A DNA stretch of 64,000 nt, from the NCBI RefSeq assembly GCF_000017505.1, contig NC_009675.1, positions 496,001 to 560,000 of the forward strand, written 5' to 3'. Below, piece by piece: positions 54,018-59,012 of the stretch (position 1 is its first letter; the number at the start of each line of letters is the position of its first letter). This stretch comes from Anaeromyxobacter sp. Fw109-5 (GTDB lineage Bacteria > Myxococcota > Myxococcia > Myxococcales > Anaeromyxobacteraceae). The position numbers and the translations under genes are program-made. The notes under the pieces are model-generated. The model saw only the letters and a list, made by a program, of their open reading frames with translations. It was not told the origin of the DNA and did no database searches.

Positions 54018-54554
54018 ATGAACACCAGAAGGCTTGCGGTGATGGCCGCGCTCGTGGCTGCCACGACGGCGCGAGCTCAGAGCGGCGGCTCGGCGGCCGA
54101 TCCCGCGGAGAGCGGGGCGAGCCGCGATTCGGCCAGTCAGGCGGCCGCCCAGCAGCAGGCGCCGAGCGTGACGAGCACCGAAGGGCCCGGTGGCAGCAGC
54201 CCGCGGCCCGTCACGCAGGGGCAGGGGGAGAACAGGCGCTTCGGCAACGAGCCGGCGGCCACGCCGGGGATCACGGGGAGGAGGGCGAACGAGCCGGGGA
54301 GGACCGGCGCCTCACAGAATCAGGTGTCCGGGCGCGTGGCGCTCGTGAACCCGAGCGAGCGCGAGATCGCGATCGACGCGGGCACCGCCACGATGCAGTT
54401 CAAGGTGGCCCCCGACGCGAAGATCACGATCGATGGGGAGAAGGCGTCGTTCGAGGACATCGCGAAGGGCGCCGAGGTCCGCGCGTCGCTCGACCGGAGC
54501 GGCGGCGAGTTCCAGGCGAAGCGCCTCGAGGTCACCTCGACCGGGAAGAAGTGA
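54018..54554 (+). CDS. secreted hypothetical protein with C-terminal beta domain
   Basis: 178 residues from the ATG at 54018, after GGAGAGGAGAG. Signal peptide MNTRRLAVMAALVAATTARAQ, then a low-complexity Ser/Gly/Ala/Gln stretch (about 22-95), then a compact beta-rich domain: VSGRVALVNPSEREIAIDAG, MQFKVAPDAKITIDGEKASFEDIAKGAEVRASLD, AKRLEVTS. The alternating pattern is like the small OB/DUF5666-type domains of exported proteins, but I cannot assign it firmly. Periplasmic location is inferred. Confidence 0.7.
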   Translation: MNTRRLAVMAALVAATTARAQSGGSAADPAESGASRDSASQAAAQQQAPSVTSTEGPGGSSPRPVTQGQGENRRFGNEPAATPGITGRRANEPGRTGASQNQVSGRVALVNPSEREIAIDAGTATMQFKVAPDAKITIDGEKASFEDIAKGAEVRASLDRSGGEFQAKRLEVTSTGKK

Positions 54555-54978: not shown

Positions 54979-55935
54979 CTAATGAATCCGCAGGGCGAGC
55001 TTGCCGAGGTGGTGCCGTCCGATCTCGCGGTGCGCCCGCGCCGCGTCGTCGAGCGCGTACACCCGCCCGATCTCGACGTGGAACGGGCCGGCGCCGATGA
55101 GCCGGTTGAGCTGCTCGAACGCGTCGCGGCCCGGCTGGCCGTCGTAAGAGAGCAGGGTCACCCCGGGAGGCGCGGTCGGCGCCGGCTCGACGCCGTTGGG
55201 GTGCGCGACGCGGCCGCCCTTGCGCATCGCGGAGAGCGCGGGGTCGAGGCTCTCGCCGTGGACGAGCACGAGCGCGGCGTCCAGACCGGCAGGCGCGAAG
55301 TCACGCGCCGCCCGCGCGACGTCGTCCCGCTTGCCGTCCACGGCCGCGTCCGCCCCGAGCCTCCGGACCAGCTCGACGCCGTCCCGCCCGGAGGCGACCG
55401 CGAGGACCCTCGCGCCCATTCGCTTCGCGAGCTGCACCGCCAGGTGCCCGATCCCGCCGCTCGCGCCGTACACCAGGAGCGTCTGTCCCGGCCCGAGGTG
55501 CAGCTGATCGTCCAGGCCGCGCACCGCCGTCACGCCGTCCGCGCCGAGCACGCCCGCCTCCTCGGCGCTCAGACCGCGTGGGATCTGCGCGACCTCGTCC
55601 TCGTTCACCGCGACGTACTCCGCGTAGAACCCGGCGTCGAAGGAGTACGCGTAGACGCGATCGCCGATGCGGAACCCGCGCACGCGATCGCCCACCGCGA
55701 CCACCTCGCCCGCTCCGTCGTTGCCGATGACGCGCGGAAACCCGCTCGGACCGAGCTCGACCTCCCCGGACCGGAGGTAGGGATCCCAGGCGCCGATGCC
55801 GGCCGAGTCCAGCCGGATGAGGACCTGGGTCGGCCCCGGCTGCGGCACCGGGAGCGTCTCGGTGTGGAGGACCTCCGGGCCGCCGTACCGATCGAATGCC
55901 GCTGCTCTCATCTGCGCTGGAACGGACGCTTGCAT
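54979..55935 (-). CDS. NADP-dependent zinc-free MDR oxidoreductase (quinone oxidoreductase-like)
   Basis: 318 residues from the ATG at 55935, after GAGGAGGAG. MRAAAFDRYGGPEVLHTETLPVPQPGPTQVLIRL, GIGAWDPYLRSGEV, GNDGAGEVVAVGDRVRGFRIGDRVYAY, cofactor site LLVYGASGGIGHLAVQLAKRMGARVLAVAS, then LNRLIGAGPFHVEIGRVYALDDAARAHREI. The catalytic and structural zinc ligands of alcohol dehydrogenases are absent, as in QOR/zeta-crystallin-type reductases. It probably reduces quinones or enones with NADPH. It is divergent from the ECF sigma gene; a shared stress regulon is possible but not shown. Confidence 0.88.
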   Translation of the reverse strand: MQASVPAQMRAAAFDRYGGPEVLHTETLPVPQPGPTQVLIRLDSAGIGAWDPYLRSGEVELGPSGFPRVIGNDGAGEVVAVGDRVRGFRIGDRVYAYSFDAGFYAEYVAVNEDEVAQIPRGLSAEEAGVLGADGVTAVRGLDDQLHLGPGQTLLVYGASGGIGHLAVQLAKRMGARVLAVASGRDGVELVRRLGADAAVDGKRDDVARAARDFAPAGLDAALVLVHGESLDPALSAMRKGGRVAHPNGVEPAPTAPPGVTLLSYDGQPGRDAFEQLNRLIGAGPFHVEIGRVYALDDAARAHREIGRHHLGKLALRIH

Positions 55936-56022: not shown

Positions 56023-56052
56023 TGTAACCACCCGTCGGCTCGCGCATCGAAT
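56023..56052 (+). promoter_or_regulatory. candidate ECF-type promoter of the sigma gene
   Basis: TGTAACC (56023-56029), 15-bp spacer, CATCGAAT (56045-56052), 20 bp before the ATG at 56073. Same form and spacing as the element at 56794-56823. Confidence 0.6.
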
Positions 56053-56072
56053 GGGAAGGGAACGAGGATCCG

Positions 56073-56765
56073 ATGGCACAGGACGCTGGTTCGGCGAGGG
56101 GCTTCCAGGCGGGCGGCGCCCCGGACGAGGCCGTGGTCCACCGCGTACTCGCGGGGGACACCGCGTCGTTCGAGCTCCTGATGCGCCGCCACAACCAGCG
56201 CGTGTACCGCACCATCCGCGCGGTGCTGCGCCGGGACTCGGCGGACGTGGAGGACGCGATGCAGCAGACCTACCTGCACGCCTACCGGGCCCTCGCCGCG
56301 TTCGAGGGGGCGTCCTCGTTCGGTACGTGGCTGACGCGGATCGCGCTCAACGTCGCGCTCGGCTTCGTGCGGAGGCAGCGCGTCGCCGGCGTGGAGCTCT
56401 CGGTGGAGGTGGACGAGATGACCCGCGGCGCGCGCGACGAGGGGCCCGAGGACGGAGCGGCGAGGAGCGAAGCCGCCGCGCTGCTGGAGCGAGCGGTCGC
56501 CCAGCTGCGCGACGAGCACCGCATCGTGTTCGTGCTGCGGGAGGTCGAGCAGCTCTCCACCGCCGAGACCGCGGAGGCGCTCGAGCTCTCGGAGGAGAAC
56601 GTGAAGGTGCGGCTCCACCGGGCGCGCCTCGCGCTGCGCGAGATCCTCGCCGGGGAGGTCGGCCAGTCCGCGCCGCAGGCGTTCGCGTTCCTCGCTCCCC
56701 GCTGTGACCGGGTCGTCCACTCGGTGCTCTCCTCGATCGGCGCCCGACCGCGGACGAGCGGATAG
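56073..56765 (+). CDS. ECF-family RNA polymerase sigma factor
   Basis: 230 residues. Sigma region 2: DTASFELLMRRHNQRVYRTIRAVL, DVEDAMQQTYLHAYRALAAFEGASSFGTWLTRIALNVAL. Region 4: QLRDEHRIVFVLREVEQLSTAETAEALELSEENVKVRLHRARLALRE. A 35-residue C-terminal extension (APQAFAFLAPRCDRVVHSVL) resembles the RCDRVV tail of some ECF groups. No anti-sigma gene is adjacent on either side, which is unusual. It is probably autoregulated through the TGTAACC promoter and drives the cytochrome gene downstream. Confidence 0.93.
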   Translation: MAQDAGSARGFQAGGAPDEAVVHRVLAGDTASFELLMRRHNQRVYRTIRAVLRRDSADVEDAMQQTYLHAYRALAAFEGASSFGTWLTRIALNVALGFVRRQRVAGVELSVEVDEMTRGARDEGPEDGAARSEAAALLERAVAQLRDEHRIVFVLREVEQLSTAETAEALELSEENVKVRLHRARLALREILAGEVGQSAPQAFAFLAPRCDRVVHSVLSSIGARPRTSG

Positions 56766-56793
56766 CGCGCGGGCGAGATCGTCCGGCCCCCGC

Positions 56794-56823
56794 TGCAACC
56801 CCCGGCGCGCTGGCGCGTCCAAT
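56794..56823 (+). promoter_or_regulatory. candidate ECF-type promoter of the di-haem cytochrome gene
   Basis: TGCAACC (56794-56800), 15-bp spacer, CGTCCAAT (56816-56823), 25 bp before the ATG at 56849. The GTG at 56825 would be at the transcription start and is not a credible start codon. Confidence 0.6.
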
Positions 56824-56848: not shown

Positions 56849-58225
56849 ATGGCGCTTTCCAGGGGCAGGGATCGATCGAAGCTCACCAGGATCATGGGGA
56901 TCTCGCTGACGTCGCTCGGCGCGCTCGCGTCGGCGGCGGTGATCGCGGGGACCGGGCAGCCCGTCGCGGCCGCGAAGGGCGACGACACGCTCGAGCGCCT
57001 CGCCAGCGAGCCGGTCGCGCGGGCCGCCGCGAAGGCGTTCCTCGAAGGGCGGGAGACCTTCCGGTTCGACACCTTCGGCGACGAGGCGTTCTGGGGCGGC
57101 CAGCTCCGGCTCCACGAGGCGATCGCCGGCTCCGCGAACGGCGGCGTCGGCGAAGGCGTGAGCCCGCGCGCCGCGCTGGCGGTGGGTCTCAAGGTCGACG
57201 CCGACGGTCTGCCGGCGAACCTTCGCCAGCAGCTCCGCCGGGGCGAGGTCGACCTCGACGACCCGGCCACGACGCTGGCGCTCCTGAAGCTCGGCGCCGT
57301 CGTCGGCGTGAAGGGCGTCTTCGAGGGCGACCGGCTGACCTCGGCCGGCATCACCTGCGCCCTGTGCCACTCGACCGTCGACGACTCGCTCGCGCCGGGG
57401 GTCGGCCGCCGCCTCGACGGGTGGGCGAATCGCGACCTCGACGTGGGGACCATCGTGGCGCTGGCGCCGGACCTGTCGCCCTTCACCACGCTCCTCGGCG
57501 TCGACGACGCGACGGTGCGCTCGGTGCTGCGGAGCTGGGGGCCGGGGAAGTTCGACGCCGAGCTCGTGCTCGACGGCAAGGCGTTCCGCCCCGACGGCAA
57601 GCCGGCCGCGACGCTCCTCCCGCCGGCCTACGGCCTCGCCGGCGTGAACCTGCACACCTGGACCGGCTGGGGATCGGTCACGCACTGGAACGGGCTCGTC
57701 GCGAACCTCGAGATGCACGGGCAGGGCACGTTCTTCGACCCGCGCCTGGACGACGCGGCGAAGTTCCCCATCGCCGCCCGCGAGGGCTTCGGGAACGTGC
57801 GGAACACGCCGGACCTCGTCACCGCGAAGCTCCCCGCGCTGCACCTCTACCAGCTCGCGCTCCCGGCGCCGGCGCCGCCCGACGGCAGCTTCGACCGCGA
57901 GCTCGCGGCGCAGGGGAAGGCGCTGTTCGAGGGCAAGGCGAGGTGCGCGACCTGCCACGTCCCGCCGCTGTACACGGAGCCCGGCTGGAACCTGCACACC
58001 CCCGAGGAGATCGGGATCGACTCGTTCCAGGCCGACCGCTCGCCGGACGGGCGCTACCGCACCGCGCCGCTGAAGGGCCTCTGGGCGCACCAGAAGGGCG
58101 GCTTCTACCACGACGGCCGCTTCGCGAAGCTCGAGGACGTGGTGAACCACTACGACGAGCACCTCGACCTCGGCCTCGACGCGGGCGAGAAGGCGGCGCT
58201 CGTGGAGTTCCTGAGGTCGCTGTGA
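56849..58225 (+). CDS. di-haem cytochrome c, cytochrome c peroxidase / MauG-like
   Basis: 458 residues from the ATG at 56849, after CGGAGGAC. Signal peptide: SKLTRIMGISLTSLGALASAAVIAGTGQPVAA. Two haem c motifs: CALCH (about residue 170) and CATCH (about residue 370). The C-terminal half, FEGKARCATCHVPPLYTEPGWNLH, APLKGLWAHQKGGFYHDGRF and LEDVVNHYDEHLDLGL, follows the high-potential haem domain of the CcpA/MauG family. GEKAALVEFLRSL is the usual ending. Periplasmic peroxide reduction or a related oxidation is likely. Predicted target of the neighbouring ECF sigma factor. Confidence 0.85.
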   Translation: MALSRGRDRSKLTRIMGISLTSLGALASAAVIAGTGQPVAAAKGDDTLERLASEPVARAAAKAFLEGRETFRFDTFGDEAFWGGQLRLHEAIAGSANGGVGEGVSPRAALAVGLKVDADGLPANLRQQLRRGEVDLDDPATTLALLKLGAVVGVKGVFEGDRLTSAGITCALCHSTVDDSLAPGVGRRLDGWANRDLDVGTIVALAPDLSPFTTLLGVDDATVRSVLRSWGPGKFDAELVLDGKAFRPDGKPAATLLPPAYGLAGVNLHTWTGWGSVTHWNGLVANLEMHGQGTFFDPRLDDAAKFPIAAREGFGNVRNTPDLVTAKLPALHLYQLALPAPAPPDGSFDRELAAQGKALFEGKARCATCHVPPLYTEPGWNLHTPEEIGIDSFQADRSPDGRYRTAPLKGLWAHQKGGFYHDGRFAKLEDVVNHYDEHLDLGLDAGEKAALVEFLRSL

Positions 58226-58249: not shown

Positions 58250-58875
58250 TCAGCACTCCACCGCGTACCGCCGGACGGCGTCCCCGTCCCAAGCGAGGCC
58301 GTTCCCGGGCACTTCGCGCGGGTGGATGAACCCGTCCTTCACGAGGAACGGCTGCCCGAGCACCGGGTGCGCCCAGTCCTGCCACTCGATCCAGTGCGCC
58401 GTCGGCGTGACGCGCATGAGGTGGCTCGAGATCTCCGGGTACAGGTGCGAGGACAGGTCGATCCCCCACGCGGCCGCGAGCGCGGCCGCGCGCAGCCAGC
58501 CCGTCACGCCACCGATCCGCATGAGGTCGGGCATGACGAGGTCGCACGCCTGCGCCGCGAGCGCGTGAACGAGCGTCGCGCGGCGTCGCCGTTCTGCACC
58601 GGCGCCACCCGGGCCGCCCGCGAGCCTCGCGCCGAGGTCGCGGACCATCGGCGCGAGGTACTTCAGCGATCGCGGCAGGTAGGGCGCGAGGTATCCGCGG
58701 CCGGTGACGCCTTCCTCCGTGAGGAGCTCCACGAGCAGCAACGGCCACTCGCCGAACGACCCGACACGGTCGAGACCGGCCGCCCGAGCGGCACCACCAC
58801 GCCGCGGGCGGTGACCTCTCGCACCGTGAGCCTGGAAAGGGTCGCGCCGTTCGCACCGCCCTGAAGGAGTGGCAT
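58250..58875 (-). pseudogene. mandelate racemase/enolase-superfamily gene, frameshifted and internally deleted
   Basis: From the ATG at 58875: MPLLQGGANGATLSRLTVREVTARGVVVPLGRPVSTVSG in segments, then a frameshift near 58765 into FGEWPLLLVELLTEEGVTGRGYLAPYLPRS and APMVRDLGARLAG. The frame then jumps to ALAAQACDLVMPDLMRIGGVTGWLRAAALAAAWGIDLSSHLYPEIS and the normal C-terminus (WIEWQDWAHPVLGQPFLV). About 170-200 residues of the barrel, including the catalytic Lys and two of the three metal ligands, are missing at about 58560-58625. Intact family members have about 360-380 residues. Clearly non-functional. Confidence 0.8.
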
Positions 58876-59012
58876 GGCGCGCCTCCCGCGTCGGTCGCCG
58901 CCTGCGCGTGATAAGCGCGGCGAGCGGCGACCGCACGGCGAGCGGAGGCGCGCCCTCGGGGGGAAGCGCCGCGGCCGAGCTCCGCAGGGGAGAGAGGTCC
59001 TGCCCTGGACCG

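Follow-up and report, generated by a model that had tools for sequence, protein, structure and literature searches.

RpoE8 of Sinorhizobium meliloti, the described sigma factor nearest to the one analyzed here, is classified as ECF29, a group with the published promoter consensus GGGAAC / GCATCCAA; the ECF29 motif is present at its mapped transcription start, and a second copy of the motif lies between rpoE8 and the next gene (PMC6180224). According to the available excerpts of the same paper (Lang et al. 2018), no ECF29 sigma factor had been studied in detail, none had a candidate anti-sigma factor, the regulation of RpoE8 "remains a mystery," and overexpression of RpoE8 activated no detectable target. 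The motif is therefore no proof of activation in S. meliloti, unless the protein needs a signal. ECF29 is listed in a table of PMC8999054 among the ECF groups that have no anti-sigma factor but carry an extension, with the mechanism given as "Others." An Azospirillum protein also named RpoE8, which we leave without a group, is reported in the excerpted text to activate its own promoter (PMC12826043). We found no demonstrated ECF29 target or regulon in the open literature searched; the classification paper fell outside that search, and its gene-context notes may overlap with what follows.

The sigma factor considered here lies in a 64-kb stretch of the Anaeromyxobacter sp. Fw109-5 genome, called the window below, where it is encoded on the plus strand at 56073 to 56765 and is 230 amino acids long. 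A previous sequence-only reading had called it an ECF sigma factor, and the domain searches bore this out: ECF-type sigma2 and sigma4 domains are present (Pfam Sigma70_r2 and r4_2), and the NCBIfam model NF008888/PRK11922 matched at 257 bits against a cut-off of 204. Among the models shown, PRK11922 was the only equivalog above its cut-off, and the next-best family reached 109 bits, which is below its own. In a tree of 105 sigma factors built without the C-terminal tail (sigma2-sigma4 part only, quick method, no bootstrap), the Fw109-5 protein grouped with S. meliloti RpoE8, the 59 tail-bearing sigma factors were set apart from the rest by a single branch (SH-aLRT 85), and the tail mapped to one change. 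The RpoE8 copy of S. meliloti strain RCAM1115, taken as such by its neighbors (acylphosphatase, DUF4142, and cupredoxin), scored 322.6 bits to PRK11922. Sequence comparison thus places the sigma factor in group ECF29. Because the PRK11922 match and the RpoE8 clade put it there, its promoter type is probably one already known; the observation at this locus is real and was correctly read, and it concerns a member of a known but uncharacterized sigma group.

The same reading had proposed that matching elements with identical N15 spacing precede the sigma gene and the adjacent cytochrome gene. Pattern searches found both on the plus strand, 771 bp apart: promoter 1, TGTAACC-N15-CATCGAAT, at 56023 to 56052 upstream of the sigma gene (predicted autoregulation), and promoter 2, TGCAACC-N15-CGTCCAAT, at 56794 to 56823 upstream of the cytochrome gene. 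The genome scan that it had suggested, with the consensus TGYAACC-N15-CRTCSAAT, gave exactly two matches in the whole 5,277,990-base single-contig genome, both at this locus, and 0 matches when the pattern was run backwards. This consensus was itself drawn from promoters 1 and 2, and we therefore derived a matrix solely from other genomes, some of them of the same genus, using 18 sites that precede ECF29 sigma genes. Over both strands of the window, this matrix ranked promoter 1 first (29.0 bits) and promoter 2 second (16.4 bits), with the third-best site at 8.2 bits; promoter 2 also exceeded the maximum from 25 random Markov-1 windows (13.7 bits). No third match to the consensus was present in the window at up to three mismatches, a threshold at which shuffles gave 2.17 expected matches, so that a loose match alone means nothing. 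Relaxed patterns were also run forwards and backwards across the Fw109-5 genome (GNAACSN{15,16}CRTCNDAY, five sites, three of them beyond the pair, versus four; up to two mismatches, 26 sites versus 18); they point to no target beyond the pair, and thus no larger regulon is visible there.

Each promoter ends about 20 to 25 nt upstream of a start codon with a stretch that resembles a ribosome-binding site, if the cytochrome starts at ATG 56849. This start is more likely than GTG 56825, since it lies 25 nt past the -10 and has GGAGG before it, whereas GTG 56825 lies only 1 nt past the -10. The zinc-type alcohol dehydrogenase/quinone oxidoreductase gene on the divergent side, outside the promoter pair (54982 to 55935, minus strand; Pfam), had been read as having no such element, and neither the search at up to three mismatches nor the matrix found an ECF29-type site on that side. 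Two other features of the window are recorded here as side observations: an enolase-superfamily open reading frame (58250 to 58936, minus strand) matches only the C-terminal half of MR_MLE in Pfam and is possibly a gene fragment, and a small exported-looking protein (54018 to 54551, plus strand) has no Pfam or NCBIfam match.

Set against the published ECF29 consensus, promoters 1 and 2 agree in the AAC core, the spacing, and the CATC/CGTC of the -10; their -35 reads TGYAACC. A -35 of the TGYAACC type also occurs in many tail-bearing relatives, with the TGTAACC variant present in Bacteroidota and in further Myxococcota. The pair is a predicted ECF29 promoter with another -35 flavor, TGTAACC. 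Both sites of the RpoE8 locus were recovered in strain RCAM1115 (locus L170, at 3903 and 4638, each with N15), one before rpoE8 and another just past its stop, before the DUF4142-cupredoxin genes. Caballeronia and Paraburkholderia have one site, upstream of DUF4142-cupredoxin-sigma, and Methylosinus has two divergent sites; ECF29 genes with the motif occur in Bacteroidota, Alpha- and Betaproteobacteria, and Acidobacteria. The core AAC-N15..17-CATC was found within 150 bp upstream of 25 of the 59 ECF29 sigma genes, compared with 1 of 59 for the backwards pattern and 6 of 46 for non-ECF29 genes. As only 25 genes have the core there, autoregulation by the motif is not universal; 34 do not, and in operons such as that of Caballeronia the site precedes the first gene.

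The gene behind promoter 2 (56849 to 58225, plus strand) encodes an exported di-haem c-type cytochrome with a peroxidase/MauG-like C-terminal part, as judged from NCBIfam, PDB profile matches, and an alignment of the CxxCH motifs. These motifs are CALCH (residues 170 to 174) and CATCH (residues 366 to 370), and their C, C, and H are invariant in all 16 aligned cytochrome sequences. Pfam gave no family for the protein, the NCBIfam match to a di-haem peroxidase type was below cut-off and covered the C-terminal part only, and the PDB profile matches start only at profile position 263 onward; a di-haem cytochrome c peroxidase/MauG domain over the whole cytochrome was thus not seen with Pfam, NCBIfam, or PDB profiles. 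The term "peroxidase-like," used for it earlier, has partial support, from the two invariant motifs and from the C-terminal part, the only part that matches di-haem peroxidases.

Next, we looked at the regulon across nine Anaeromyxobacter genomes (G000, which is Fw109-5, to G008). The pattern GNAACSN{15,16}CRTCSRAT, whose design drew on sites known from the same nine genomes, gave 26 matches in eight of them and 0 backwards. Seventeen of the matches were assigned, to sigma genes (four), cytochrome genes (six), cupredoxin genes (three), type III polyketide synthase (PKS) genes (three), and a DoxX-like gene (one); the other nine are unassigned or probably chance matches. The match G006:C17, which adjoins an open reading frame that we take to be pilus-ATPase-like, was rejected as a target and regarded as chance. 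A homologue of the cytochrome is present in eight genomes, with no match in G008 (66% complete). The motif precedes the cytochrome gene in six of these eight (G000, G001, G002, G003, G005, and G006), and the same six genomes carry it before an ECF29 sigma gene. In all of them except G000, the motif-bearing cytochrome gene is away from the sigma gene, on another contig or megabases off (3.0 Mb in G002). G004 has neither an ECF29 sigma factor above cut-off nor a cytochrome motif, G007 has the motif before neither gene, and the strict motif was absent from the cytochrome homologues of these two genomes and from those outside the genus. Since the cytochrome motif is missing where an ECF29 sigma factor above cut-off is absent (G004) or its gene is motif-less (G007), control of the cytochrome gene is supported. 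The earlier prediction of autoregulation plus direct control of the cytochrome gene thus gains support from comparison, with the motif before both genes in the same six of nine genomes.

Other genes share the motif in part of the genus, and in G002 the predicted target sites number five. A motif-bearing cupredoxin gene (copper-bind family) is convergent to the sigma gene in G001, G002, and G005, and cupredoxin homologues with weaker sites occur in G003 and G006; the homologue in Fw109-5 itself (56% identity, G000:1882074) has no site. A DoxX-like gene with the motif was found in G001, G002, and G003 and, unlinked, in G006, where DoxX-like and cupredoxin genes stand together on contig 1 (about 295788 to 296992; L153/L186) with the ECF29 sigma gene on another contig, and the DoxX-like gene keeps the motif. 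Chalcone-synthase-type (type III) PKS genes carry an ECF29-type promoter in G002, G005, and G001 (L126, L128, and L130); the gene is present in all 12 genomes examined, the site in only these three, and the homologue in Fw109-5 is without one. The promoter-bearing PKS genes are a lineage-specific addition, through which a lipid or quinone product might be tied to the response.

We performed a similar survey of the wider group. For 59 distinct ECF29 sigma genes, we searched the surroundings up to 2.5 kb away and counted DoxX-like genes at 26, cupredoxin at 12, DUF4142 at 9, and di-haem cytochrome at 6, with none of these four partner families at 18. The counts come from home-made profiles, include cut contigs, and are lower bounds, as at least L078 and L158 were missed (the DoxX-like gene lies inside a long stop-to-stop sigma frame). 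Some loci in the motif and neighbor listing repeat one genome region; the tree, upstream-motif, and neighborhood counts use distinct rows. DUF4142 and cupredoxin neighbors were verified on examples by Pfam, and DoxX was matched in L079 (27.8 bits against a cut-off of 23.6), while two Bacteroidota examples had a subthreshold MauE match or none. Single examples of neighbors include a catalase (L073), a CCP_MauG protein (L019), a CDGSH protein (L012), and a ferritin-like protein with a cytochrome c (L175). In L073 (G012 contig 23), the ECF29 sigma gene is flanked by the catalase gene and a two-frame cytochrome homologue, and a type III PKS gene lies at a distance of about 1.9 kb. A plasmid-borne member in Planctomyces adjoins nitrite/sulfite reductase genes instead. 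From the gene families involved, the common theme of ECF29 neighbors appears to be envelope redox and metal handling.

The promoter pair is thus conserved in sequence together with a predicted regulon, and we infer that both promoters depend directly on the sigma factor. In the explanation that we prefer, the ECF29 sigma factor would guide RNA polymerase to promoters of the AAC-N16-C[A/G]TC type, driving its own gene in positive feedback as well as the gene for the exported di-haem cytochrome, and in relatives the group would drive cupredoxin, DUF4142, and DoxX-like genes. Given these targets in relatives, the response would most likely supply periplasmic electron-transfer and metal-handling proteins under envelope oxidative or metal stress. 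The activity of the sigma factor would most likely be set inside the protein, by a short tail with an invariant F-x(4)-C-x(6)-V. We regard the promoter and regulon part of this explanation as highly probable and the whole, in which ECF29-driven promoters are combined with tail-set activity, as fairly probable.

The C-terminal extension noticed by the sequence-only reading is present, at about residues 197 to 230 (56661 to 56762, plus strand), and consists of a loop and a predicted helix (residues 208 to 223). F206, C211, and V218 are each unchanged across all 57 distinct sequences; the sigma protein has one Cys in all, and the second most frequent Cys column has a Cys in 17 of the 57. These counts cover all distinct sequences with an HMM score of at least 200 (HMM from 14 tail-bearing seeds) and were made without a Cys-motif filter, since the first locus filter demanded [RK]C[DENS] and would have made the Cys count circular. 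In the structure model, helix residues 211 to 220 have a mean pLDDT of about 72, and the loop at 199 to 207 is below 50. None of the solved ECF chains that the profile retrieved (19 distinct sequences) extends into the tail; profile matches end by position 180 of 206. No anti-sigma family was found by Pfam or NCBIfam among the sigma factor and its four neighbors, in agreement with the earlier statement that no anti-sigma gene adjoins it. The lone conserved Cys would fit redox or metal sensing and also a structural role. Because there is no linked anti-sigma gene and the Cys is invariant, tail-based sensing is our best guess for how the sigma factor is controlled, although we hold it only tentatively. 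More speculative, and on balance doubtful, is the broader idea that ECF29 proteins are one-component sensors, in which the tail Cys would respond to an intracellular thiol-oxidant or metal signal and switch on a periplasmic redox/copper regulon, with the promoter kept from Bacteroidota through Myxococcota to Proteobacteria and the cargo (cytochrome, cupredoxin, DUF4142, and DoxX-like) swapped by lineage. Separately, five loci (L099 to L103, in G004, G008, G022, G016, and G014) hold sigma factors of another type, with a tail RC[DE]xxRxxLxxC and two cysteines; they score far below the ECF29 members and are a possible second cysteine-tailed sigma group.

Alternatively, the sigma factor could always be competent, with its level set by transcription alone and the loop started by another regulator or by leakiness. 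Two promoters of one type with no linked anti-sigma gene speak for this reading, and transcriptional control is a mode listed for ECF sigma factors without an anti-sigma factor in the excerpted part of PMC8999054. However, the invariant tail would be left unexplained, and the null result of RpoE8 overexpression suggests control at the protein level in at least S. meliloti (PMC6180224, as excerpted), so we judge this reading to be rather unlikely. It is quite improbable that an unlinked partner holds or activates the sigma factor, a part that in relatives could fall to the divergent DoxX-like four-helix membrane protein. Its gene neighbors the sigma gene in both Bacteroidota and Myxococcota, usually divergently, and carries the motif in some Anaeromyxobacter; yet it has no match in the Fw109-5 genome at E 1e-8 and is therefore not an obligate partner here, its model shows a helix bundle, for which the closest solved structure, the NACHO/TMEM35A assembly factor, is reached only at E 0.013, and DoxX genes elsewhere are reported, in the portions available, as ECF sigma targets (PMC7907618 and PMC3511200). 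Equally improbable is that both elements serve a different ECF sigma factor or are a functionless relic of the lineage: the genome has other ECF sigma factors (six matches at E 1e-30) and the TGTAACC -35 resembles the GTAACC box of SigF, but the SigF spacing is GTAACC-N16-CGAA versus N18 here (PMC3511200, as excerpted), the motif tracks ECF29 genes across distant phyla, and within Anaeromyxobacter the cytochrome gene has the motif only where an ECF29 gene with the motif exists.

What is new is a conserved predicted regulon for ECF29 and the exact tail residue to test. The group thereby gains a searchable promoter and a specific residue to mutate, and Anaeromyxobacter, with two promoters so close together and few other sites, offers a compact place for testing.

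Three other assignments had been considered for the sigma factor and were rejected: ECF26, a first guess whose promoter and linked anti-sigma do not fit; ECF16, to which we take Caulobacter SigF to belong, considered for the GTAACC box but off by 2 in spacing; and the CorE type, whose cysteine-rich C-terminal domain is absent from this protein. The likeness to Caulobacter SigF consists of the -35 GTAACC and of a DoxX gene in the SigF regulon; the locus shows N18 rather than the GTAACC-N16-CGAA of that group (excerpts of PMC3511200), and among the equivalog models shown the sigma factor is above cut-off only for PRK11922. The ECF26 proteins RpoE1 and RpoE4, which respond to sulfite, resemble it in a small regulon of periplasmic redox proteins including cytochrome c and pseudoazurin but differ in a -35 of GGAAT, a -10 of CGTC, and a cotranscribed anti-sigma factor (excerpts of PMC3511301 and PMC6527743); neither a linked anti-sigma gene nor a GGAAT/CGTC promoter was found at the locus.

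CorE of Myxococcus xanthus (formerly ECF44 and now either ECF238 or unclassified) is similar in having no anti-sigma factor and a Cys-containing C-terminal extension, and we count its action on periplasmic metal genes as a further likeness, but its cysteine-rich domain has four invariant Cys versus the one Cys of the ECF29 sigma factor (excerpts of PMC3107203 and PMC8999054). A separate CorE-like protein, Anae109_4009, is listed for the same strain in the available part of PMC3107203. RpoE8 of S. meliloti differs from the Fw109-5 sigma factor in its -35 (GGGAAC versus TGYAACC) and in the genes downstream, which are DUF4142 and cupredoxin there and the di-haem cytochrome here. The two nevertheless share a clade when the tail is left out, the PRK11922 family, the N15 spacing, a -10 of CATCCAAT, and a second site just past the sigma stop, and the excerpted text of PMC6180224 names no anti-sigma factor for RpoE8 either.
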